This document shows, one piece after another, positions 6,358 through 62,295 of a DNA stretch of 64,000 nt. A model generated the notes under the pieces. That model was given only the letters and a program-made list of their open reading frames with translations. It was not told the DNA's origin and searched no databases. Source of the DNA: Bolinopsis microptera (lineage: Eukaryota > Ctenophora > Tentaculata > Lobata > Bolinopsidae); NCBI RefSeq assembly GCF_026151205.1, contig NC_087072.1, positions 12,934,169-12,998,168 on the forward strand, written 5' to 3'. Position numbers and translations under genes: made by a program. Every line of letters starts with the position of its first letter. Position 1 is the stretch's first letter.

Positions 6358-6790
6358 CAATGAAACTAATAAATCAATGAAACTAATAAATCAATGTTTT
6401 AGCTCATTTTACAAAGTCAAATATTTAAAACAATTAAAATTGTATAGTGCTCAATTTGTAAATGACTAGTTGATCTTTGCTATTGGAAGTTTGTCAAGGA
6501 CTGGCAGCTAGCGGGGCAAGGAATGCACGGGCTTAGGGGCTTTTGTGCACACCAGAACACTAGCTCGGTAGATTTTTGGAAACTAGAAGGACTGAAAACT
6601 AAAATTGTTTTTGATGGAGGCTGAGGCATGTTTTTGAGAGGGACGATATAATAGCTTGTGGTAACAACTGGCCTTTACTTTAATAGGATGAAGTTTTAGT
6701 TTTAGGACAGGAAGAAGGCATTAAGAAGATTTGCTCTTTGTTTACAAGGCAGAATATAAGCAATGTTGGTTATAATAATAATAACCTGTG
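6358..6790 (+). repeat. Dispersed repeat E, copy 1
   Basis: About 430 bp that recurs in reverse orientation at 46515-46950 with high identity, including two tandem AATGAAACTAATAAATC phrases at one end. It is non-coding in both places. At 46950 it abuts a truncated LINE ORF1, so it may be a separate insertion or a LINE-associated non-coding segment. Confidence 0.75.
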
Positions 6791-37776: not shown

Positions 37777-40001
37777 TTAAAATACAAGCTCATTCTTATC
37801 GAAGTTTAATTCTGTCCATTCTAATTCTTCGTACCTGGACTGTATCTTGAGTAGCTCACTTTTCAGTGTTACTTTAACTAAGTTCGTTGACTTAGTAAAG
37901 CTTATCATACTGTCAATTTTTCGACAGTCGTTCCACATTTTTGTTGATTGATAAATGAAAGAGGATGATGGGTTCGGGGTGATGAACTGGTCTGAACGTC
38001 TTTGTGATGGTGATCTGTGGAGTAAAGATAGGAGTGAGATTGGAGATTCTAATCTGACAATTTTGAACAGTTCTAATAGACATGTGTATTTGTACAGGTT
38101 GTGGACGGTAAGAAGGCCGTTCTTGTTAAACAACGGCTTTGTATGCTCTTTTTCAAAGAATTCTCTTCCTAGGATTTGTTCATCTATACAACGTGTTCTG
38201 GCACATGTTCTAAATTTATCTAGATATGCTTCAAGGTCACCAAATAGTATTCTGATACATTTTTTCTGAGTGATGAAGATAGGTTGAAGCATATTATTAC
38301 TCGACCCACCCCATACCGATATTCCAAATCTTAGGTGTGACTCAAATAACGTGTGGTACAATTCTTTATGGTGTTTTTTTCGGGATAACGTGTCGTATTC
38401 TACTGAGTCTTCCGATCTCACACCTAAGTTTCGAGTTGAGGGCTCTTATTTGAACATCCCATTTTAGCTTTTCGTCAATAATAACACCTAAAAACTTGGT
38501 CTCTTTAACTTGCTTTATTACCGTATTATTTAGAGTTAGTATATATTCTGATTCGTTATCTGCCTCATTATCAGTAGCTGTACGTGACGGATTGAAGTGA
38601 ATGTAGCAGCATTTCTTTATATTTATATGTAATAGATTGCATTTCATGTACTGGTGTAACAAACGGAGAATTTCGTTTGCTCTTTCATACAATTTTTTTT
38701 CTACATTCATCTACTACGAATATGTTTGTGTCATCTGCAAATAGTATGAACTTGCCCAGATCAGTTGTTCTAAATAAGTCGTTAACATATATTATAAATA
38801 GCAAGGGTCCGAGACAAGAGCCTTTGGGAACTCCAAAGAGAACAGGCAGCTTGTCAGACTCTTCGCCCAGTACAGAGACATATTGATATCTATTAGAGAG
38901 ATAACTAGCGATGAGTCTATTGGCGTTTCCACGTATTCCATAGTTGTCTAGTTTATTAAGTAGTTTTTCATGTGAGATCGTGTCAAACGCTTTAGATAGA
39001 TCAATAAATATTCCAAGTACATGCAGTTTTTTGCTAAGACAGGATTCTATGTAATTCACTGAGGAGTTGAGGGCATGGCTTGTGGAGTGATTTTTTCTAA
39101 ATCCGTACTGGTTCTCGTAAATCATTTTCTGGGACTGAAAGAAGCTATACAGTCTGTTGTAAATAATTTTTTCAAATATCTTACCAAAAACAGCTAAAGT
39201 TGATACTGGCCTATAGTTTTCCAGCAATTCCTCATTATCCTTCTTATAGATCGGACTGATTCTCCCAGTCTTTAAATCATCTGGGAATACTCCATTCCTC
39301 ATGCATTCACTGTATAATAAAGATAGTATAGGACAGATCACTTTAGACGATTCTTTAACTACATGTATTGGGATGTCGGATGACTTCCCATTCTTCAGTT
39401 CAGATATAATCATTCTAACCTCGTCAGATGTACAGTCATTAATGAAAATACTGGACGTGTTTGCTCTAGGCAGGTAGTCATAAAAACTAGGAAGATTGTT
39501 AATAGTTAGTTCTCCAATTTCATTATATGCCCCGTTTAAATTAGACGCTAGAGAAACAAAATACTTATTAAATTCATTGGCTATTACTCTACGATTGGTT
39601 ATCTTCTCATTGTTTATAGTAAACAGTGGTTTTATTTGCCGTTTCTGTTTGCCCCGTATTTGATTAATCAGTTCCCATGTCTTCTTACTATTACCGTTTG
39701 TGTCTGCAAATTTTCCCATGAAATACTTAGTTTGAACATCTTTGCGATCTTTTTTAACCATCCTTCTATAATCCTTATAAGTTTTGTATCTAGAACGTTT
39801 TTCACAACATTTCAAGCATTGACATGTTCCACCTTTATAATCAGTTTCACCGAGTTTACATTTTTTCTTTCTAACTTTAGCCCAATTGTCATAGAGTTGG
39901 TGCTGATGCTTGATTTTGGCTATAAGCCCAGGTGTGATCCATGGGTTATTTTGTGTAGTTCTTTTGGAAGACTTAGGGGTTGCCAACTTACACGTTTTAT
40001 C
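37777..40001 (-). pseudogene. LINE ORF2, reverse-transcriptase part, two frameshifts
   Basis: Coding-strand order: NNPWITPGLI linker; RT fingers GRISPIYKKDNEELLENYRPVS; motif A FIDLSKAFDTISH; motif B GVPKGSCLGPLLFIIYVNDL; catalytic motif C LFADDTN; thumb KFLGVIIDEKLKW; then the conserved C-terminal domain HTLFESHLRFG...KEHTKPLF...SFIYQSTKMWND. The catalytic aspartates are present. RT copies element RNA at the nicked target. The frame shifts near 38695 and near 38385, both in A homopolymers of the sense strand, so either the copy is dead or these are assembly indels. The FADDTN form and C-terminal domain fit CR1/L2/Rex1-type LINEs. Confidence 0.85.
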
Positions 40002-41161
40002 CCCTATCAAGATTCTAAAAAAAGTGCGATGAGATTGGATTTTGACACTAGAAGTGCGATTTTCACGAAATGTACTCCCCACCCCCCCCCCCCCCCCCCC
40101 CTCCAGCCTGCAAGATTTCTTGCCCCACAAATTATTTTCTATTTAAAAAGATTTCGCGAGTCCCTTTGTAAGCGAAAAGTATGTCACTGTTATTGGATCC
40201 ATAAATAACGAAAAATTTACGTGCGTATTTTCATGAATTATATTATGTTACATATTGTAATCATGGTAAGCCTCACGTAGCACGATGGTTGAGGGCGCGC
40301 TCGTCAAGCAGTTGACTCGGGTTCGAGTCTCGTCAGCGGTCATTCTTTTGGCAATTATTAATTATTTTACTAAAATTATCATCAGAGCACCTTGTAATAT
40401 ACGTTATCCGATAGATTATACTGTTCGTACTTCATCTAGAGAACTAAGAGACTGAGAAGACCGGCATTTAAGGATTTTTCCGGGAAAGGCCTCGTTCACA
40501 CTGGAACATGTCAAATTATTGTAAACGGAGTTATCTGGTAATGTTTGTTTTGTTTATGGCTAGAATTTAGAATGGAATCAATGTGATGAGGATCCAGAGT
40601 TAATTACCTGCTAGGATTAATAAGTCAGTTCTCCAGTTGAAGAGACCCTTTCTCAAACTTTTAATGAAGAAATATTCACTATGCCTATGGCAGTATCAAG
40701 TATATTCTGAGAAAGAATATAGCCAGGAATAGTACCTCCTTTAATGGTAACCATGGTAACTATAGTAACCACTGTGAATCTTGATCTTATAACAACTAGT
40801 ATCCTTTAAGACTTAGACAGTACAGTGAATAAACACGCTGAAAAGCGATGAAAATGCAAGCGCGCGACCGAATATGTAGTGCTGAAAAAGGGTGCCGAAA
40901 TCTCGCGGAGAATCTCACGATATTGTGAGCCTAGCTATGAGATTTAAACGAAACTCGCAAAAATCTGGCAAAAATCTCGCGCGCGTTACGTCGAAGTTTT
41001 CACGCTATAAACAAGTGATAAAATACACGTTAAGAGTATAAAATACATGTTAAGTTCCTAATTCCCTCAACTTTTAAGTTAAACTTTTTCTGTTTCCTCA
41101 TTTATTTACAAATTTTGTGCGATGAGTCCGGCTCGCAATCTCGCATAAATCTTGAGCTGGG
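40002..41161. mobile_element. 1160-bp insertion splitting the LINE ORF2, 9-bp target duplication
   Basis: CGTTTTATC occurs at 39993-40001 and 41162-41170. The element starts CCCTATCAAGATT and ends AATCTTGAGCTGGG, an imperfect terminal inverted repeat of about 14 bp. A 9-bp duplication is typical of Mutator-like elements. The interior is non-coding, with a C run of about 20 near 40082 and a tRNA-like segment at 40265-40340. Confidence 0.65.
40265..40340 (+). repeat. tRNA-like sequence within the insertion
   Basis: TAGCACGATGGTTGAGGG resembles an A box region and GGTTCGAGTC a B box; a GTC-containing loop would suggest aspartate. Stems pair poorly, so probably a tRNA-derived fragment rather than a gene. 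Confidence 0.4.
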
Positions 41162-41970
41162 CGTTTTATCGATACTACTTTTGAAAACATCATGAAATAC
41201 CGTGAAGTTGTCAATTACTTTATTCTCTAATTCATGTTCCAAGTCCTTTACAAAAGAGGTAACATTAGACTTACAGTAGTCGTAATATTGTTTATATTTT
41301 AGGTTACTCTTAGTGGATCCCATACTCTTTTCAAATATTTGAAAGACTGGTGAGTGGTGGGATATACGATCAGTAAGTGTGCCTGAGGCTATTATACTCT
41401 CTACATCGTTAGTTATAATATTGTCAATACACGATACTTTACAACCTGGCTTCTCATGAGTTGGCAGAGATATTAGGGGAAAAAATCCTCTACTGAACAG
41501 GACTTCCTCATAACGTTTTACAATCGCATTATCCTTATTATGTAGATCAATGTTGAAATCACCTGCCAGGTAACTGCATTTCGGCAAATTATCGAGAATT
41601 GCTGAGAGTTCTAATAATGCAACATTTACATCACCACTTGGAGGGCGATACACTACACCAACAGTGACCGGAGTATTCTTGCTGCTTATCGTAACAAATA
41701 GAGTTTCTAGGTTTTCAGATATATGGGACAAATTGCCATTTACTGTAGCACTGAGGGTATCACATACATAAAGAGCGACTCCAGTGCCTTTTCTTTTATC
41801 TTGCAAAGTGTTTTGGTAGAAACTATTGTATCCAGTCAGTTGGTAAAGGTCACTTAATTCGGGGCCTTCATTTGTTTCTGCTAAAGCAATGATCGAAAAT
41901 TTCATATATCTCTGTAGTTCTATTGCCAGAGTATCAAAGTTAGATTTATTACCATCGATATTTTGAAATA
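41162..41970 (-). pseudogene. LINE ORF2, AP-endonuclease part
   Basis: Coding strand (starting before the first Met) reads FQNIDGNKSNFDTL, then IIALAETN (metal-binding Glu), VGVVYRPPSG, YLAGDFNIDL (catalytic Asp/Asn), SCIDNIITN and ISHHSPVF (final His). These are the ordered motifs of an APE-like LINE endonuclease that nicks target DNA to start reverse transcription. About 265 codons survive. The last codons before 41162 are in the LINE; the open frame beyond (to 41102) reads into the inserted element. The 5' end is truncated at about 41970. Confidence 0.85.
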
Positions 41971-42480
41971 ATAATCAATGAAACGAAAAGTTTTATTTTA
42001 CATTCCTTTAATCATAAATAGAATAAGAGCTTAAACCACTAATTAGTTAGCTAGACGTGAACTTGAGGAAATATTCTTTATTTAAAAAACTTTATTTGGT
42101 TGTTAGCATTTTTATTATGGTAAGTGGTTGAATTTAGGGGAATTTAGTGAGACAGGGTCAGTTTCTCTATTGTCTTAGAAAAATTTCTACTTTACAGTAG
42201 GCAATGCTGAGTGGCAGGAATGAAGGACCAAAACGCTTGGGGCTAACAATGGCCCATTTACAAACCACTTCAGACATGGCAATGATGATATTTATGCTTA
42301 ATTCGTCTGAAACTGACCCTACTACACTTCTAATATTCTATAAAAATCTCTTCTAAAATAGGTATAAAGATGCATAGCGCAAAACACACAAACAAAAATG
42401 TTTATAATCCATATATAAATAAATTAAATAAATTTCTATAGAACTTTCAAATTTCTATAAAACTGATAAACCTATAATCT
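41971..42480. other. Spacer between LINE copies
   Basis: AT-rich, no gene. Contains the probable 3' end sequences of LINE copy 2. Confidence 0.4.
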
Positions 42481-42653
42481 ATATAATATATATATCTATT
42501 CATTTTGCACCCAGAGAAAGATGTGATCACAGAGGTAGTATCGATATTATGTTCATGACAAGGTATGGGGCTGCTGCAAGTTATATTTTGCTAAGATATT
42601 ACAGCTTTTGTAAGCTTAAGTAATCTAGGCAAGGTCAATTTTAATTTTGTTTT

Positions 42654-43817
42654 TTAAGTTTTTGAATTTTGTCGAACACTGTTTAAGGCTAAGTTCCAGT
42701 CGTTTGGTTCTCCTTCCTTTTGAGTGTGAGCGATGGTTATTTTTATGGATGATTTGAGGTGATTGGGCTTACAGGTGAATGTAGTTAGCATGAGATTTTG
42801 TCGTACTGTGTTCCAGATTGTCCCTGCTCTATATATGTAGCTGTCTGATGGTTTAGGTGTGAGAATGAGTGTCTCTTTGCCAAGTCTGCCAGATGTTTCA
42901 AAGAGGGAGTAAAGTGATATAGGGGTTCTATATTTCAAGACCTTGAAGATGTCATTAATGCAGTGGTAGAAGTACAGATTATGCACATTCATGATTTCAT
43001 GAGTGTTGAAGAGGGGTTTAGTATGCTCTTTTCTGTAGAATTCGTTGCCCAGGATTTGCTCCCCGTAGGGTCTGCATCGCGCACTAGTTTTGAACTTATC
43101 CAAGTATGCTTCTTTATCACCAAACATTATGCGGGCACACATTTTCTGTGCTTTGAACAGAGGTTCGAGTTTTTTGTTAGATGCTCCTCCCCAGACTGTT
43201 ATACCATAAGCAAGATAGCTTTCAAACAGAGTGTGATACAGATCTTTGTGGAGTGATGTCGGAATGTTATCTTTAATTCTATTTAGCATGCCACAGCAGC
43301 TGGCTAGTTTTTTTGCTAATTTACCTCTATGTGCATTCCAGTTTAGGTCTTCATCGATTGTTACGCCTAAGAATTTAGTTTCATGTACTCTCTCCAAAGG
43401 TATGCCATTGATATTTATTTCTTGATCAGAGGGGGTATCTTCATCTTTGTTGGATCGAGAGTTTGAGAATTCAAGGTAACAGCTCTTGCCAGTGTTTATG
43501 TGAAGTTTATTGGCAAGCATGTAGCGGTGTACGGAGCTTAGGACTTCATTGGCTTTTTTGTATGCTAGGTTTTTACTTTTTGCAGCGACGAAGATATTTG
43601 TGTCATCAGCAAATAGAACAAATTTAGAGTTTTTTTCAGAGTTTGTAAGATCGTTTATGTATATTAAGAACAGAAGGGGCCCTAAACAGCTCCCCTGTGG
43701 CACTCCAAAGAGCACGGGTAGAGTATCAGATATTTCATTAAGCACACCAACATATTGTTTACGGTCGGAAAGATAACTTTCCAGGAGTTTGATGAGTACT
43801 CGTTCATTTGGTTGCAA
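42654..43817 (-). pseudogene. LINE ORF2, RT C-terminal half
   Basis: 387 open codons. From residue 11: LLESYLSDRKQYVGVL, motif B GVPQGSCLGPLLFLIYINDL, catalytic LFADDTN, thumb KFLGVTIDEDLNW, and the C-terminal domain HTLFESYLAYGITVWGG...KEHTKPLFN...RAGTIWNTVRQN. It begins right after the internal deletion, so motif A and the fingers are absent and the protein cannot polymerise. The frame is otherwise undamaged, suggesting the copy is young. Close relative of copies 1 and 3. Confidence 0.85.
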
Positions 43818-44134
43818 AATGTTTTATTAAATTCTTTAACACTATATGGGTTACAGTTATTGAGTAATCGGTTGATGTTTACAAGTGTTTCATCAATGTC
43901 AGTACTATTATTTTCAGAGTCAGTATCTTCATATATAAACGGATTGTAACGAGTACTTGCTAAGTGTACACAGTTAGGGCAGTAAAAATCTTCATATATA
44001 ATTTTGTTTGTACTGGATTTAGTATAGCATTTATGGTGCATAGCACAGTCACACCTACAACATTCAGCAATGAATTGGCCAATGGAAATGAATTTTGTAC
44101 AGACAGGGCATACCTCTTTGGTCAATTTATTCAT
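43795..44134 (-). pseudogene. Start of LINE ORF2: zinc-finger (PHD/RING-like) domain
   Basis: Begins MNKLTKEVCPVCTKF, followed by CCRCDCAMHHKCY and FYCPNC: an ordered set of Cys and His residues of a PHD/RING-type treble zinc finger, residues about 9-56. Then RYNPF and an acidic linker. In intact relatives this region leads into the endonuclease. Here it runs out of frame at the deletion (about 43795), so the reading frame to 43682 has RT sequence in the wrong frame at its end. The ATG overlaps the stop of the upstream frame (ATGA), consistent with translational coupling. Confidence 0.75.
44131..44134 (-). promoter_or_regulatory. ATGA stop/start overlap between LINE ORF1 and ORF2
   Basis: On the minus strand CCC-ATGA-ATAAA contains the TGA stop of the esterase frame and the ATG of the zinc-finger frame. 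Stop/start overlaps of this kind are known to support ORF2 reinitiation in some LINEs, for example SART1. Function here is inferred. Confidence 0.6.
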
Positions 44135-45270
44135 GGGTACGGTACGTAACCTTCCCCATGTTGAGTCGCAGCAGCAGCAGGAGAGGAACCACCCATCGTC
44201 TGGGAGTATAAGCGATTGTCAACTTTATCCGATCTCTTCTTCCTTCTATCAGTCCATCCATTCATCCTTAAAAGTATTGTATTACGTATAAGAACCCCCA
44301 GTTTTGCTGTACCACTCCAATTGAGGTGTAAATAGTCCGGTCTCTGGTTTCGTCCAATGTTCCTAGAGAATTGCTGGCTGAGGAGCCCAGCCTCATCACA
44401 GAACATGTCAAAACCAGGTACCAAAGTCACACCAAAGTTGGAATGGAGCAGCTCCTTAAAAATTAATTCATTATAATGTGCAACTTTACGATTTAGCTCA
44501 ACGAGTTTGGTTGGCAGCAGCAGACACACAAATATATTTGCTTTGGGGTTAAGCGCTTGGATCATTTCTACTTTCTGAACAAATGGTTTAAAAACATTGT
44601 TCTTTATATCAGCGGTATTTTTGATCTCAGGTTTCCTGATATCATTTATACCACACATCAAGAGAACATTCCTGTATCCACATGAAACTGTAGGATTTAT
44701 ATCCCCCACTACCGGAGCAAAATACTGTTTTCCGGGGAGCCACTGCCCAAATGATTTTTTGGGGTCCAGCCCGAATTTGAGACCACCAGTATGCGAGTCT
44801 CCGATGATACATGTAGAGTTCCTGTTTCTAAAGCTAACTGAACGAAAAGTTAGGCTGTATCTCACCCCACCAGTTATTGCCCCATCCTCGATACAGTGGC
44901 TGTAGAACTCTTGGCTGCGTCGAGTCATGCGATACATGGATCTTGGCACACATGTATGGTCATGAGCCATATGATCCGTCTTCTTATCAAAGAATTTGAT
45001 GTTGCACTGGCCTCCAATAGAAACAGTGAAAATTTCGGATTCAGGGTGGATGGTAGTTTCATCATCCGAGTGTTTCGGTAGGGAGCCATCCTCTTTGAAG
45101 CGATTGATCAGCAGGCTATTGATCTTCGGTTTTTCACCACTACAGAATGCACCATTGATTTTGTCCACTAGATTGGAGAAGCTAGTTGAAGCTAGTTGGC
45201 CATTGGATGACTTGGAGCCATTATACTTGTATGGTTCTCCCAAAGAATACACAGCACGAGCTCCCTCCAC
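44131..45270 (-). CDS. LINE ORF1 C-terminal part: AlkB-type dioxygenase fused to SGNH esterase
   Basis: 379 codons from the first Met, open about 30 codons further upstream (IEEFITTEEQET...), so the true start is lost. Domain 1, residues about 1-145: AlkB-family 2-oxoglutarate/Fe(II) oxygenase. Seen: PKHSDDE (iron ligands H67, D69), VSIGGQCNIKFFD strand, distal iron ligand H125 in YSHCIEDG, and RYSLTFR (R137 and R143, the 2-oxoglutarate and AlkB-signature arginines). Domain 2, residues about 153-335: SGNH hydrolase with IIGDSH (nucleophile S159), CGIND (N209) and DYLHLNWSG (D312, H315). All catalytic residues of both domains are present. AlkB enzymes remove methyl groups from nucleic acids; SGNH esterases hydrolyse esters. 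Esterase domains are known in ORF1 of CR1-like LINEs. The frame is undamaged. Confidence 0.85.
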   Translation of the reverse strand: MEGARAVYSLGEPYKYNGSKSSNGQLASTSFSNLVDKINGAFCSGEKPKINSLLINRFKEDGSLPKHSDDETTIHPESEIFTVSIGGQCNIKFFDKKTDHMAHDHTCVPRSMYRMTRRSQEFYSHCIEDGAITGGVRYSLTFRSVSFRNRNSTCIIGDSHTGGLKFGLDPKKSFGQWLPGKQYFAPVVGDINPTVSCGYRNVLLMCGINDIRKPEIKNTADIKNNVFKPFVQKVEMIQALNPKANIFVCLLLPTKLVELNRKVAHYNELIFKELLHSNFGVTLVPGFDMFCDEAGLLSQQFSRNIGRNQRPDYLHLNWSGTAKLGVLIRNTILLRMNGWTDRRKKRSDKVDNRLYSQTMGGSSPAAAATQHGEGYVPYP

Positions 45271-45371
45271 AACAAAATCCTCGTCAAGTGATTGGCAGGC
45301 AAGGAGGAGAGTTTCCTGCTCTTCTGTGGTAATAAACTCTTCTATAGCGCCTACAACTAGCTTTTAGCTAG

Positions 45372-46490
45372 TTTATATTCCTACATGCGAGCAAACAAAC
45401 TCCATGTCAACTTGTCTAAATGCTGTTTCATTCACTTTAAACCAGCATCGTCCTCCCAGACTGACAATAATTCTGAATATACTCTAACCATTGATAACTT
45501 TCCAATAAAACAAGTTGCATCTGCTAAGTTTCTGGGAGTCGTCATCGATGAAAAGCTAACCTGGGAAGAACATATAAAATCACTTAGGCGTTCTCTCAGC
45601 CATGCAACATCAACTCTCTGCCGCCTACGCTGCTCCCTCCCAGATTTCTTACACCGCCAGTTGTATTACACTCTATTTGAATCACACCTCTCCTATTGTA
45701 TCACGGTTTGGGGTGGGGCAGCCAAAACTCGTATAAGTTCTGTATTCAAAGCACAAAAATATTGTCTCAGGGTACTGTTTGGCGACAGGGAGGCATACCT
45801 AGATAAATTTAAGACCTGTGCTCGTGCTCGACCGTTTGGCAACCAAAATCTGAACAAAAAATTTTTCTTGAAAGAGCACACGAAACCTTTGTTCAAGGAA
45901 CACGGAATACTTGCCGTCCAAAACCTGTACACTTACCATTGTTTCCTTGAGCTCTATAAAATCATGAAATTCCGTGCTCCGATTTCCCTCCATGAAAATT
46001 TCACCTGCTCAAGTAGGAAACCCACCCTTATACTAAGCCAAGCAGACCCCCCTGACAACTTCAATAGCAGAACGACTCGTATTTGGAACGTAATTGTGCC
46101 TAAGCTTGGTATACGTGACTACTGTCTAAGTGTGGCCTGCCTGAAGTCTAGGATGAAGCAATCACTGCTCGTCAACCAGCATAACCATGCTGATCTTGAT
46201 TGGACAAACAAAGATTTCGAATGCTCTAATCTAAATTTTGACATTAAGTCTACCCTAGGGTCCACACATCCAAAATGATTATCTTGAAATTGAAAATTAG
46301 CTGGGTGTGCATTTTCCTTTGTCTTACTAACGTGTGTGAGCGCAGTGTAGTGAGAAAGTGTTTTTAACAGATTTATTATTAGACTTAGGATTATGATTTT
46401 TAATATATTACATTGATATAAGATTTATTTTTGATAGGTACTTAATAAAGTTGATGAATTTCCCTCCCTATTAAAATTTTAAACCCATTT
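45372..46490 (+). pseudogene. LINE copy 3: RT C-terminal fragment and 3' UTR
   Basis: 297 open codons from MRANKLHVNLSKCCF, just after the catalytic motif, through KFLGVVIDEKLTW, HTLFESHLSYCITVWGG, KEHTKPLF and TRIWNVIVPKL, ending GSTHPK. It is the same LINE family as copies 1 and 2, 5' truncated, on the plus strand. The C-terminal frame has no breaks. It meets copy 2 head to head at AACTAGCTTTTAGCTAGTT (45357-45375). Confidence 0.85.
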
Positions 46491-46514
46491 AGTGAAAATT
46501 GATAAACGAAGATC

Positions 46515-46950
46515 TAGATATTGATACATATTATAACCAACATCGCTTATATTCTGCCTTGTAAACAAAGAGCAAATCTTCTTAATGCCTTATTCCTGTC
46601 CTAAAACTAAAACTTCATCCTATTAAAGTAAAGGCCAGTTGTTACCACAAGCTATTATACCGTCCCTCTCAAAAACATGCCTCAGCCTCCATCAAAAACA
46701 ATTTTAGTTTTCAGTCCTTCTAGTTTCCAAAAATCTACCGAGCTAGTGTTCTGGTGTGCACAAAAGCCCCTAAGCCCGTGCATTCCTTGCCCCGCTAGCT
46801 GCCAGTCCTTGACAAACTTCCAATAGCAAAGATCAACTAGTCATTTACAAATTGAGCACTATACAATTTTAATTGTTTTAAATATTTGACTTTGTAAAAT
46901 GAGCTAAAACATTGATTTATTAGTTTCATTGATTTATTAGTTTCATTGGT
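46515..46950 (-). repeat. Dispersed repeat E, copy 2 (reversed)
   Basis: Reverse complement of 6358-6790. Immediately follows, on the minus strand, the truncated coiled-coil end of a LINE ORF1 (boundary at about 46950). Confidence 0.75.
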
Positions 46951-47956
46951 TCTTCTTTTGATTGGAGATGCTCATTAGCTATTAGGTCTGGGCCAGGGGC
47001 AAGTGAAGAACTGGTAATTTGGACGTTTAAATGGTCAGAAGAAGCCAAAGAATTTCGCTCAAGAGTGTTCAAAGACTGTCTAATGGCTGTTAGCTCCTGA
47101 TTCGTCTCCAGAGACTGCTTGGAATTTAGCTCCTGGAGATTCTTCTCTATTTTTCCATGAGATCGTTGGTCTTGGAGGAAGATTGAGCACTTACTTGAGG
47201 AGTAGAAAAGTCCTGCAGTTGCTTGTTCAACACTTTAATCTGTTCTGTTAGGCCACTATCAGACTCAGAAACCTTTCCGAGTGAAGAGTCAACTGAAGTT
47301 TTCAGCTGCTTTAGATCTCCTTCCATCACTTCAACCCATGCTGGAGCAGTGCCCTTGTCACTTACCAGTAGGTGCTTGATATGGAGGTCAAGGTTCTGGA
47401 TGGCAGCAATGCTGTCGTTTAGACTGTCAAAGTCAACCTTTGCAAGCTTTTCACCAAAAGCTGTGATGGTATTAAGCTTCTCTGTGGCAATAGCTGTCTC
47501 ACACTGACTGTTAGATTTTTGAAGTGTCAGAGTGTTCCTACACACATAACACACATCTTCAGCAGTTTCGAATGTGGGGATTGGTGAAACCAAACAAAAA
47601 GGGCAGTGCCAATTGGTCATGCTGTTGACATTTTTCTGGTTGAGTCCATTCATAGTTAGACAGTCTATGTGCCAATATTGCTTGCACTTTACACAGTCAA
47701 TCTTCCATGACGATATTGACTTACTACATGGACATTTCGTCTTGTCCCTGTGTGAACTGTCAAACTTTGGGGGTGTTACATCACTGTCTACAACAATAGT
47801 TTCACAAGATACATCCTTTCCCTTCGCCTCTGGTCCTGGAGTGTTGTTCTTGATTCGGGACTTAGCCTTTTTGTCCGCAGGGGAAGGAATCCGAGAGTTA
47901 TTGGTGATAGATGAGGCTCTCTTGTTACTCTTGTTGTTGTCACCCATACTCAGCAA
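46951..47956 (-). pseudogene. LINE ORF1 N-terminal part: PHD finger plus coiled coil
   Basis: 269 open codons then a frameshift near 47150, with the same protein continuing in another frame (IEKNLQELNSKQSLETN) to about 46951. Residues 1-75 are basic and Ser/Asn/Pro-rich. Residues about 76-122 form a C4HC3 PHD-type finger: CPCS, CVKC, WHIDC, WHCPFC. A second CYVC pair follows near residue 136. From about 155 the sequence is heptad-like (LNDSIAAIQNLDLHIKHLL; SGLTEQIKVLNKQLQDF), a probable coiled coil for ORF1 multimerisation. Likely the N-terminal portion of the ORF1 whose C-terminal portion is the AlkB-esterase frame; that linkage is inference. Confidence 0.7.
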
Positions 47957-48453: not shown

Positions 48454-49424
48454 TTAGTTATCGTCGACTATGATTGCAGTGTAAAATTTGTCATATGAAT
48501 TGTCGACGGTATAATTAGGGTCTGTTGTTATAGATGAGAGTAGCTGTTTCTTATACGAATCACTAAAGCTTTTAACATCGGGCAGATTTCGTAGATCTGT
48601 TGGAACATTATTCCAACATTTTGCCCCCAAGTATTGAAAGTTTTTATGTGATGTTGATCTATTAACATATAGGTTGCAGATTTCGCCGCTCCTACTACCT
48701 CCTGATATGTAACTAAATTTGTTCATAAAGTTTGTAGGACAATTGTCATGGATGATTCTAAACATATAATTTGACAGATGGAGTTGTCGTCTAAGATGGA
48801 GTGGTAACCATTTCATGTCTCTATAAACATTAAGGCTGCTCTCTGTTTGTGGAACGTTGAGAGCTATTTTGGCTACCTTTTTGTACAGAGTGTCAAGTTC
48901 AGCAAGTTTTGTCTTGCCAGCTCTACAATAGATCGTGTCTAAATAATCGAATTGTGGCAACATGAGTGCATTGGCAAACATTTTCCTATATTTATCCATC
49001 TTGCTAGCAAGCTTCTTTACTAGTTTTTCAGCTTCACCACCCATTCCACCAGATGATGAGAAACTAACGGCGTGAAGCTTCCTTTCTCTACTTCCAGAAC
49101 CCTTGCATTGTATCACCGTTTCTCCTCATTCTCATGGGACTGGTACATAGTTGGGATCGATTTGCTTGCATTGGAGGGGGCTCAGGCATGGAATACCCTT
49201 ACATTAAAATATGCCCTCTCTGAAGCATTCCAAATCGATCTTGCAGAAATGTCCAGCCTAGCTTGGTCTCCTAGGACTGTTCCCTTTGGTAACTCTAGAC
49301 CATCAACTGGAAGAAGAACTAGCTCAGCACTATTAATACAATCACAGGCTGCTGATTTAAAAGATACTTCGACTCCAAACAATTTTAAATTGCAGTAATC
49401 TAATCTAATTGCAGCGGCACACAC
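48454..49424 (-). pseudogene. Chimeric LINE remnant: RT-associated C-terminal regions of two types
   Basis: Minus strand, 5' to 3': ARLDISARSIWNASERAYF and NVRVFHA, TGA, APSNASKSIPTMYQSHE, TGA, ARVLEVEKGSF, frameshift, then SSSGGMGGEAEKLVKKLA joined to MFANALMLPQFDYLDTIYCR and a CR1-type C-terminal domain (WLPLHLRRQLHLSNYMFRII ... KCWNNVPTDLRNL ... SFSDSYKKQLLSS). The first part is a conserved region I associate with RT-bearing elements of invertebrates; the second is a classic LINE C-terminus. The two look fused near residue 45 of the 220-codon frame. Two in-frame TGA codons and one frameshift make it dead. Confidence 0.65.

Positions 49425-58718: not shown

Positions 58719-62295
<3,577 letters not shown>

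Follow-up and report, generated by a model that had tools for sequence, protein, structure and literature searches.

The ctenophore Bolinopsis microptera carries a multicopy family of LINE retrotransposons whose ORF1 is predicted to join a PHD finger, a coiled coil, an AlkB-type dioxygenase and an SGNH hydrolase, in that order, an architecture that is almost certainly a trait of the family. In the window, the stretch of 64,000 nucleotides analysed here, the AlkB-SGNH frame of 410 aa runs along the minus strand from 45363 to 44134 and ends in a TGA stop (44133-44131). A sequence-only reading of this DNA had described it as a LINE-encoded fusion of the two enzymes with all catalytic residues, and these are indeed in place: the AlkB signature residues H98, D100, distal H156, R168 and R174 (the same residues that were numbered 31 lower in that reading), and the SGNH motifs GDSH (188-191), GIND (238-241) and DxxH (DYLH, 343-346). 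All five AlkB residues of the window frame, from the HxD pair through the distal His to the two Arg of RYxLTFR, line up with those of E. coli AlkB (K-12). The family profile searches that the reading had proposed gave a significant AlkB match (2OG-FeII_Oxy_2, PF13532, residues 30-174, E 1.9e-12, 48.3 bits against a cut-off of 31.2) and a mixed result for the esterase: the Pfam match (Lipase_GDSL_2, PF13472, residues 219-351, E 2e-4, 22.3 bits) lies below its cut-off of 32.9, and a profile of 11 homologues does reach a solved SGNH protein, the zebrafish LINE ORF1 esterase 4c1b, at 2.8e-5. A single-sequence PDB search with the window frame returned ALKBH2 alone, at 0.047, and two single-sequence structure models (mean pLDDT 34.0 and 36.6) were too poor to use. 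By these comparisons and those below, the window frame is the C-terminal half of a LINE ORF1 with the predicted order PHD - coiled coil - AlkB - SGNH.

The window copy of the element is interrupted by three insertions, and its anatomy as read here is supported by an uninterrupted, nearly identical copy (L003), in which ORF1 is a single 746-aa frame and the zinc finger of ORF2 leads into the endonuclease without a break. On the minus strand, the N-terminal part of ORF1 (46949-47947, ATG at 47947) encodes the same residues as the intact ORF1 of L003, with one frameshift near 47150, and holds the PHD finger (~47734-47594, assigned by profile, with a weak Pfam PHD match in the window copy) followed by the coiled-coil region. 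ORF1 is then split by insert 1 (45364-46948, plus strand, edges uncertain by a few bases), a 5'-truncated LINE of another family, across whose site L003 reads through in one frame; it contains an RT frame (45361-46275) and a tail made of a 17-bp unit in tandem, and no clear target-site duplication was found at its edges. The last 420 bp of this insert recur at 6777-6358 with 99.3% identity. The truncated copies at 45364-46948 and 6358-6777 have one common tandem tail, and the latter seemingly has ACAGGT on both sides, as judged by eye. Beyond insert 1, again on the minus strand, come the AlkB domain (44842-45357; Pfam, E. coli AlkB alignment and AlkB profile), with HxD at 45072-45064, the distal His at 44898-44896 and RYSLTFR at 44862-44842, and the SGNH esterase domain (44260-44820; below the Pfam cut-off, assigned by residues and profile), with GDSH at 44802-44791, GIND at 44652-44641 and DYLH at 44337-44326. 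An ATGA (44131-44134, minus strand) overlaps the stop of ORF1 with the start of ORF2.

ORF2 opens with a cysteine-rich zinc-finger part (43790-44134, minus strand), which in L003 runs on into the endonuclease. The sequence-only reading had let the fusion be followed by a LINE frame with zinc finger and RT; the zinc finger stands, as the start of ORF2, and the RT frame (43823-42657, stop to stop) proved to lie in a separate nested LINE. We rejected it as the element's own RT because it belongs to insert 2 (41975-43789, minus strand), a 5'-truncated LINE within ORF2 at whose site L003 is uninterrupted. ORF2 continues with the endonuclease part (41162-41974, minus strand, in agreement with L003), where Exo_endo_phos matches the frame 41974-41105 at E 4.8e-5 and 23.6 bits, slightly under the cut-off of 24.5. 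After insert 3 (40002-41161, ~1.2 kb, without an assigned strand), which is absent from L003 and flanked by a 9-bp direct repeat at 39993-40001 and 41162-41170, follows the reverse-transcriptase part (37780-40001, minus strand; RVT_1 E 1.3e-30 in frame 40142-38688), whose frame is broken between ~38688 and 38445 and whose C-terminal part is related to other RT fragments in the window. Compared with the RTs of the AlkB-bearing LINEs, the two nested RT fragments show 41-48% identity, and the RT tree has no starred branch. Elsewhere in the window, a coding exon at 60317-60712 (ATP-synt_ab, E 6.8e-18; V-ATPase subunit B-like by eye) adjoins a tandem repeat.

A search of the genome (264.65 Mb, 232 contigs) with the 410-aa frame found at least 102 places that encode it or its relatives at 45-100% identity, a lower bound, 102 of 865 candidates having been scored. 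No internal stop falls inside the match in 97 of these 102 places, and identity descends in steps, at about 93-100, 80, 53, 52, 51, 49 and 45%. The subfamilies, about eight in all, are labelled A (that of the window) to H. Frames of at least 700 aa occur in 49 of the scored places by hand count; two of these have read-through stops, and three are longer than 780 aa and hence no plain ORF1s. The AlkB part is thus present in many copies of about eight subfamilies, which excludes the insertion unique to one copy that the sequence-only reading had named as the finding that would overturn it, and the AlkB-SGNH fusion, in frame within the ORF1 of many copies, is a family trait. Over residues 3-410, four further places match the window copy at 100% identity, and because such identical copies exist the family has apparently been active, and has apparently multiplied, recently.

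Sixteen ten-kb loci, picked for long frames, were fetched: both ORFs are whole in ten (L032-L037, L039, L041, L044, L045), ORF1 is whole and ORF2 broken in four (L038, L040, L042, L043), and ORF1 is cut or broken in two (L046, L047). Intact copies encode an ORF1 of 716-751 aa (PHD, coiled coil, AlkB, SGNH) and then an ORF2 with zinc finger, endonuclease and RT; in the ORF2 of L039, RVT_1 and Exo_endo_phos both exceed their cut-offs. The ORF1/ORF2 junction, judged by eye, is ATGA in subfamilies D, E and F, CTGA in B, a longer overlap in C and a short gap in G. Two subfamily D copies have the same abrupt 5' boundary shortly before ORF1 and share at least 1 kb of 3' sequence, their 3' end lying beyond the stretch compared. 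Going by its ORF1 domain types (PMC4120745), the family is provisionally placed near the CR1/L2 group of LINEs. At another locus (C11:15167358-15171080), a 741-aa open stretch within a 1474-aa frame of the genome search shows a part resembling Ty3/Gypsy pol by eye, joined in frame to the SGNH end of the family's ORF1, apparently via an insertion. Relatives of the AlkB-SGNH protein were not found in viral contigs, phages or genome contigs, which carries little weight since these collections are non-eukaryotic, nor were relatives of the RT alignment found in the viral contigs or genome contigs of such collections.

Domain assignment and catalytic residues hold across the family. PF13532 exceeded its cut-off in all five ORF1s scanned (E 3.6e-12 to 5.3e-15), PHD (PF00628) was matched in three of them, each time below cut-off, and GDSL_2 in four, below the Pfam cut-off in every copy scanned. 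A profile built from the whole ORF1 alignment found ALKBH2 (6e-7), ALKBH3 (8e-4), the DIDO1 PHD finger (2.4e-4) and coiled coils (3.4e-5), and no SGNH chain at 0.01. Restricted to the AlkB part of the LINE copies, the profile placed ALKBH2 first (4.3e-8), followed by ALKBH8 (1.1e-6) and ALKBH3 (6.7e-5); neither ALKBH5 nor ALKBH1 came up at E <= 0.01. ALKBH5 (2e-5) was matched only once other transposon AlkBs and E. coli AlkB had been added to the profile; as that mixed profile contains E. coli AlkB, its AlkB match arises by construction, and the AlkB relationships given here rest on the LINE-only profile. The SGNH profile, built from 11 domains of which three come from other transposons, found SGNH enzymes at 9.6e-8 in addition to 4c1b, and it is through this profile together with the catalytic residues that the predicted SGNH membership becomes firm. 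Among 24 aligned ORF1s, all picked as open frames, the five AlkB catalytic positions, one Asn before HxD, and the SGNH Ser, Asn, Asp and His (blocks I, III and V) are identical in 24/24, although the independent number is nearer eight than 24 because copies within a subfamily are near-identical. The same holds more widely: no iron or 2OG residue differs among all 14 AlkB domains aligned (from LINEs, two other transposon types, a host exon and E. coli), and Ser, Asn, Asp and His are invariant in all 11 SGNH domains, including those of the other transposon types.

To assess selection, one of the checks suggested by the sequence-only reading, dN/dS was computed from Nei-Gojobori counts for each part of ORF1, pairwise between copies, and the ratios are low. 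Five pairs had a dS of at least 0.25, and their AlkB dN/dS was 0.06 (L037/L042), 0.13 (L032/L034), 0.15 (L003/L017), 0.16 (L003/L019) and 0.18 (L012/L019); in the very young pair L003/L012, with few changes, it was 0.47. For SGNH the values were 0.08 (L037/L042), 0.09 (L032/L034) and 0.28 (L003/L012). Comparisons of distant subfamilies mostly show saturated dS, and their AlkB parts still share 40-49% identity. These substitution patterns show purifying selection on the AlkB and SGNH parts. Synonymous divergence also changes abruptly along the ORF1s of L003, L017 and L019 and of L032 and L034, with one break near the AlkB/SGNH boundary: L003 and L019 have zero synonymous differences in the N-terminal and PHD parts, a dS of 0.287 in AlkB and a saturated SGNH part, and the identity of L003 and L017 falls from ~0.9 to 0.69 at that boundary. 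Subfamilies seem, from these mosaics, to have exchanged parts of ORF1.

The AlkB-SGNH pair also occurs in no fewer than two other kinds of transposon of this genome. A PF13532 search counted 151 matches, with 150 of 587 candidates scored; all the matches listed exceed the cut-off, the listed ones at 66.7 bits or more with one at 38.9, and the five scanned ORF1s of the window lineage score 47-57 bits, under the listed matches of at least 66.7. Many of these matches fall in repeated open frames (551, 593, 611, 646, 676, 707, 777 and 843 aa). Three places were read (L048, L049 and L050), with one stretch near L049 (L051). L048 (C5:18132900-18138900) and L050 (C2:17780900-17784900) are LINEs with ORF1s of 646 and 551 aa in the order AlkB-SGNH (AlkB E 5.7e-23 and 1.1e-18; SGNH 8.3e-6 and 3.7e-4, below cut-off), followed by an endonuclease-RT ORF2 in L048 and by the start of one in L050. 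As the L048 RT shares 20-25% identity with those of the window lineage and of the two nested fragments, the two loci are, on sequence comparison, a second, distant LINE lineage with a predicted AlkB-SGNH ORF1. The window holds a truncated RT fragment (48457-49125) that shares 71% identity with the L048 RT across 127 aa, and the second lineage has a relic there on that account.

L049 (C10:16873500-16878500) is part of a 3388-aa frame in which SGNH comes first (4.3e-6, below cut-off) and AlkB later (2.5e-21), and ~4 kb further, in the same phase, L051 (C10:16879500-16880600) matches Helitron_like_N above cut-off (3.1e-13). That L049 and L051 form one frame rests on frame length and phase, 1 kb between them being left unread; in this putative Helitron-like frame the order is SGNH-AlkB, the reverse of that in the LINEs. 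In a tree of 14 AlkB domains, with long branches flagged, the window lineage forms one clade (95/98); support for the node that unites all 11 transposon AlkBs is 84/90 and not decisive. The host's ALKBH2 exon, which matches solved ALKBH2 at E 2e-52, is 21% identical to the window lineage. The predicted pair therefore recurs in a distant LINE lineage and in a Helitron-like frame, and because it does so in two LINE lineages and a third, Helitron-like context, it points to a shared pressure.

What would the AlkB domain do for the element? It is probably an active demethylase, as the conserved iron and 2OG residues suggest, and its most likely role, on which we consider the case evenly balanced, would be to act on the element's own RNA or cDNA, clearing lesions that block RT. 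The sequence-only reading had likewise supposed a demethylase that protects or unmarks the LINE's RNA or cDNA. ORF1p would assemble on the element RNA via its coiled coil, and the AlkB domain would oxidatively strip RT-stopping base methyl lesions, with m1A and m3C as the best candidates, from the packaged RNA or, alternatively, remove matching damage from single-stranded cDNA, so that reverse transcription is not blocked; the SGNH domain might anchor the particle to lipid or take off acyl groups, in line with what has been suggested for the zebrafish LINE esterase, and the PHD finger might read chromatin. This role is supported by the nearness of the AlkB profile to ALKBH2, ALKBH8 and ALKBH3; ALKBH2 and ALKBH3 are m1A/m3C-type repair demethylases. 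Consistent with it, m1A impedes the RT of the R2 non-LTR element and AlkB treatment relieves the block (PMC12140624), and a transposon-borne AlkB of orchid Gypsy elements binds RNA and demethylates it in vitro (PMC9289625). The ORF1 esterase of ZfL2-1 hydrolyses esters and binds negatively charged phospholipids (PMC3905857). The strongest reason for keeping other readings comes from the Helitron-like frame. A Helitron is a DNA element that should have no reverse transcription, and since the pair sits there too the benefit may not be read-through by RT; for the Helitron-like case, single-stranded DNA is a better fit than RNA.

The best placed of these other readings, though we think it unlikely, is counter-defence, in which the host marks the element's RNA (m6A) or DNA (N6-methyladenine) for silencing and AlkB erases the mark. 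The orchid Gypsy AlkB demethylates m6A in RNA in vitro (PMC9289625), N6-mdA has been reported on young LINE-1 in mouse ESCs with ALKBH1 as its demethylase (PMC6015446), and the recurrence of the pair in several transposon types would fit a common host pressure; but the enzymes that rank first with the LINE AlkB profile are ALKBH2, ALKBH8 and ALKBH3, and neither ALKBH5 nor ALKBH1 is among its matches at E <= 0.01, bearing in mind that AlkB sequence similarity does not fix the substrate. Still less probable is a substrate outside the element, such that ORF1p demethylates host tRNA, mRNA, DNA or protein and changes the cell. ALKBH8, a tRNA-modifying enzyme, is among the nearest profiles; against such a substrate, the usual target of an ORF1 protein is, in cis, the RNA that encodes it. 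Cellular RNA is proposed as one possible target in the orchid work (PMC9289625).

A more elaborate and rather doubtful idea is that AlkB and SGNH form a mobile two-enzyme de-modification module, acquired by or exchanged among unrelated transposons and acting sequentially on one modified nucleotide, for example by alkyl oxidation and hydrolysis of an ester-bearing base on RNA or single-stranded DNA, so as to erase a silencing host mark. There is little in favour of an AlkB domain kept as a nucleic-acid binding fold in which catalysis is not needed: LINE ORF1 proteins are chiefly RNA-binding (PMC4120745, PMC3905857) and some SGNH proteins have lost hydrolysis (PMC3905857), yet the iron/2OG residues are invariant in all 24 ORF1s and all 14 AlkB domains compared, and mere binding needs none of them. 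We reject as practically inconceivable the chance capture of a host AlkB gene by one copy, a reading with nothing found in its favour, given the many copies in about eight subfamilies with AlkB in frame inside ORF1, the distance from the host ALKBH2 exon and the low AlkB dN/dS.

LINEs with an esterase or a PHD finger in ORF1 are known, and the feature added here is a putative AlkB demethylase in the same polypeptide. A conserved demethylase beside an esterase offers a testable lead on the role of ORF1, namely that RT-blocking or silencing base modifications may be so serious a hindrance that selfish elements retain an eraser of their own, and it would be a natural counterpart of the laboratory trick of AlkB treatment ahead of reverse transcription. 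In the full-text literature, judged mostly from titles and the starts of abstracts and with most subscription papers, preprints and Repbase lying outside its scope, we found no LINE or Helitron reported to contain AlkB; unnamed predictions of such proteins may exist in protein databases. In the Jockey superfamily, PHD and esterase forms are among the ORF1 types described; the text on these types makes no mention that we found of a dioxygenase, and it places esterase ORF1s only in vertebrate groups (PMC4120745). The CR1/L2 elements with esterase (Type IV) or PHD (Type III) ORF1s, such as ZfL2-1, likewise have PHD, coiled-coil and SGNH types and share the endonuclease-RT ORF2 with the present family (PMC4120745, PMC3905857); unlike those described types, the family has AlkB between the coiled coil and the esterase, and PHD and esterase in one ORF1.

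Among parasites with an AlkB domain, the plant RNA viruses of the Alpha- and Betaflexiviridae and Closteroviridae (PMC9289625) likewise have an RNA stage and carry AlkB inside a larger protein; they are not retroelements, a distinction from the LINE family drawn here by description and not by sequence. Closer in kind are the AlkB-bearing Ty3/Gypsy elements of Phalaenopsis orchids, whose AlkB binds and demethylates RNA in vitro and which, like the AlkB-SGNH LINEs, acquired and retained an AlkB with intact cofactor residues (PMC9289625). Theirs is an ALKBH5-like AlkB in a separate ORF of an LTR element, without an esterase and in a plant (PMC9289625), whereas that of the LINEs is fused within ORF1, is nearest to ALKBH2, ALKBH8 and ALKBH3, and stands with SGNH. 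The best solved relatives by profile, cellular ALKBH2, ALKBH3 and ALKBH8, likewise have HxD...H, RxxxxxR and a G-x-x-Y-x-Y loop; compared with them, the LINE AlkB has an MTRxSQ segment of its own and is fused on both sides.
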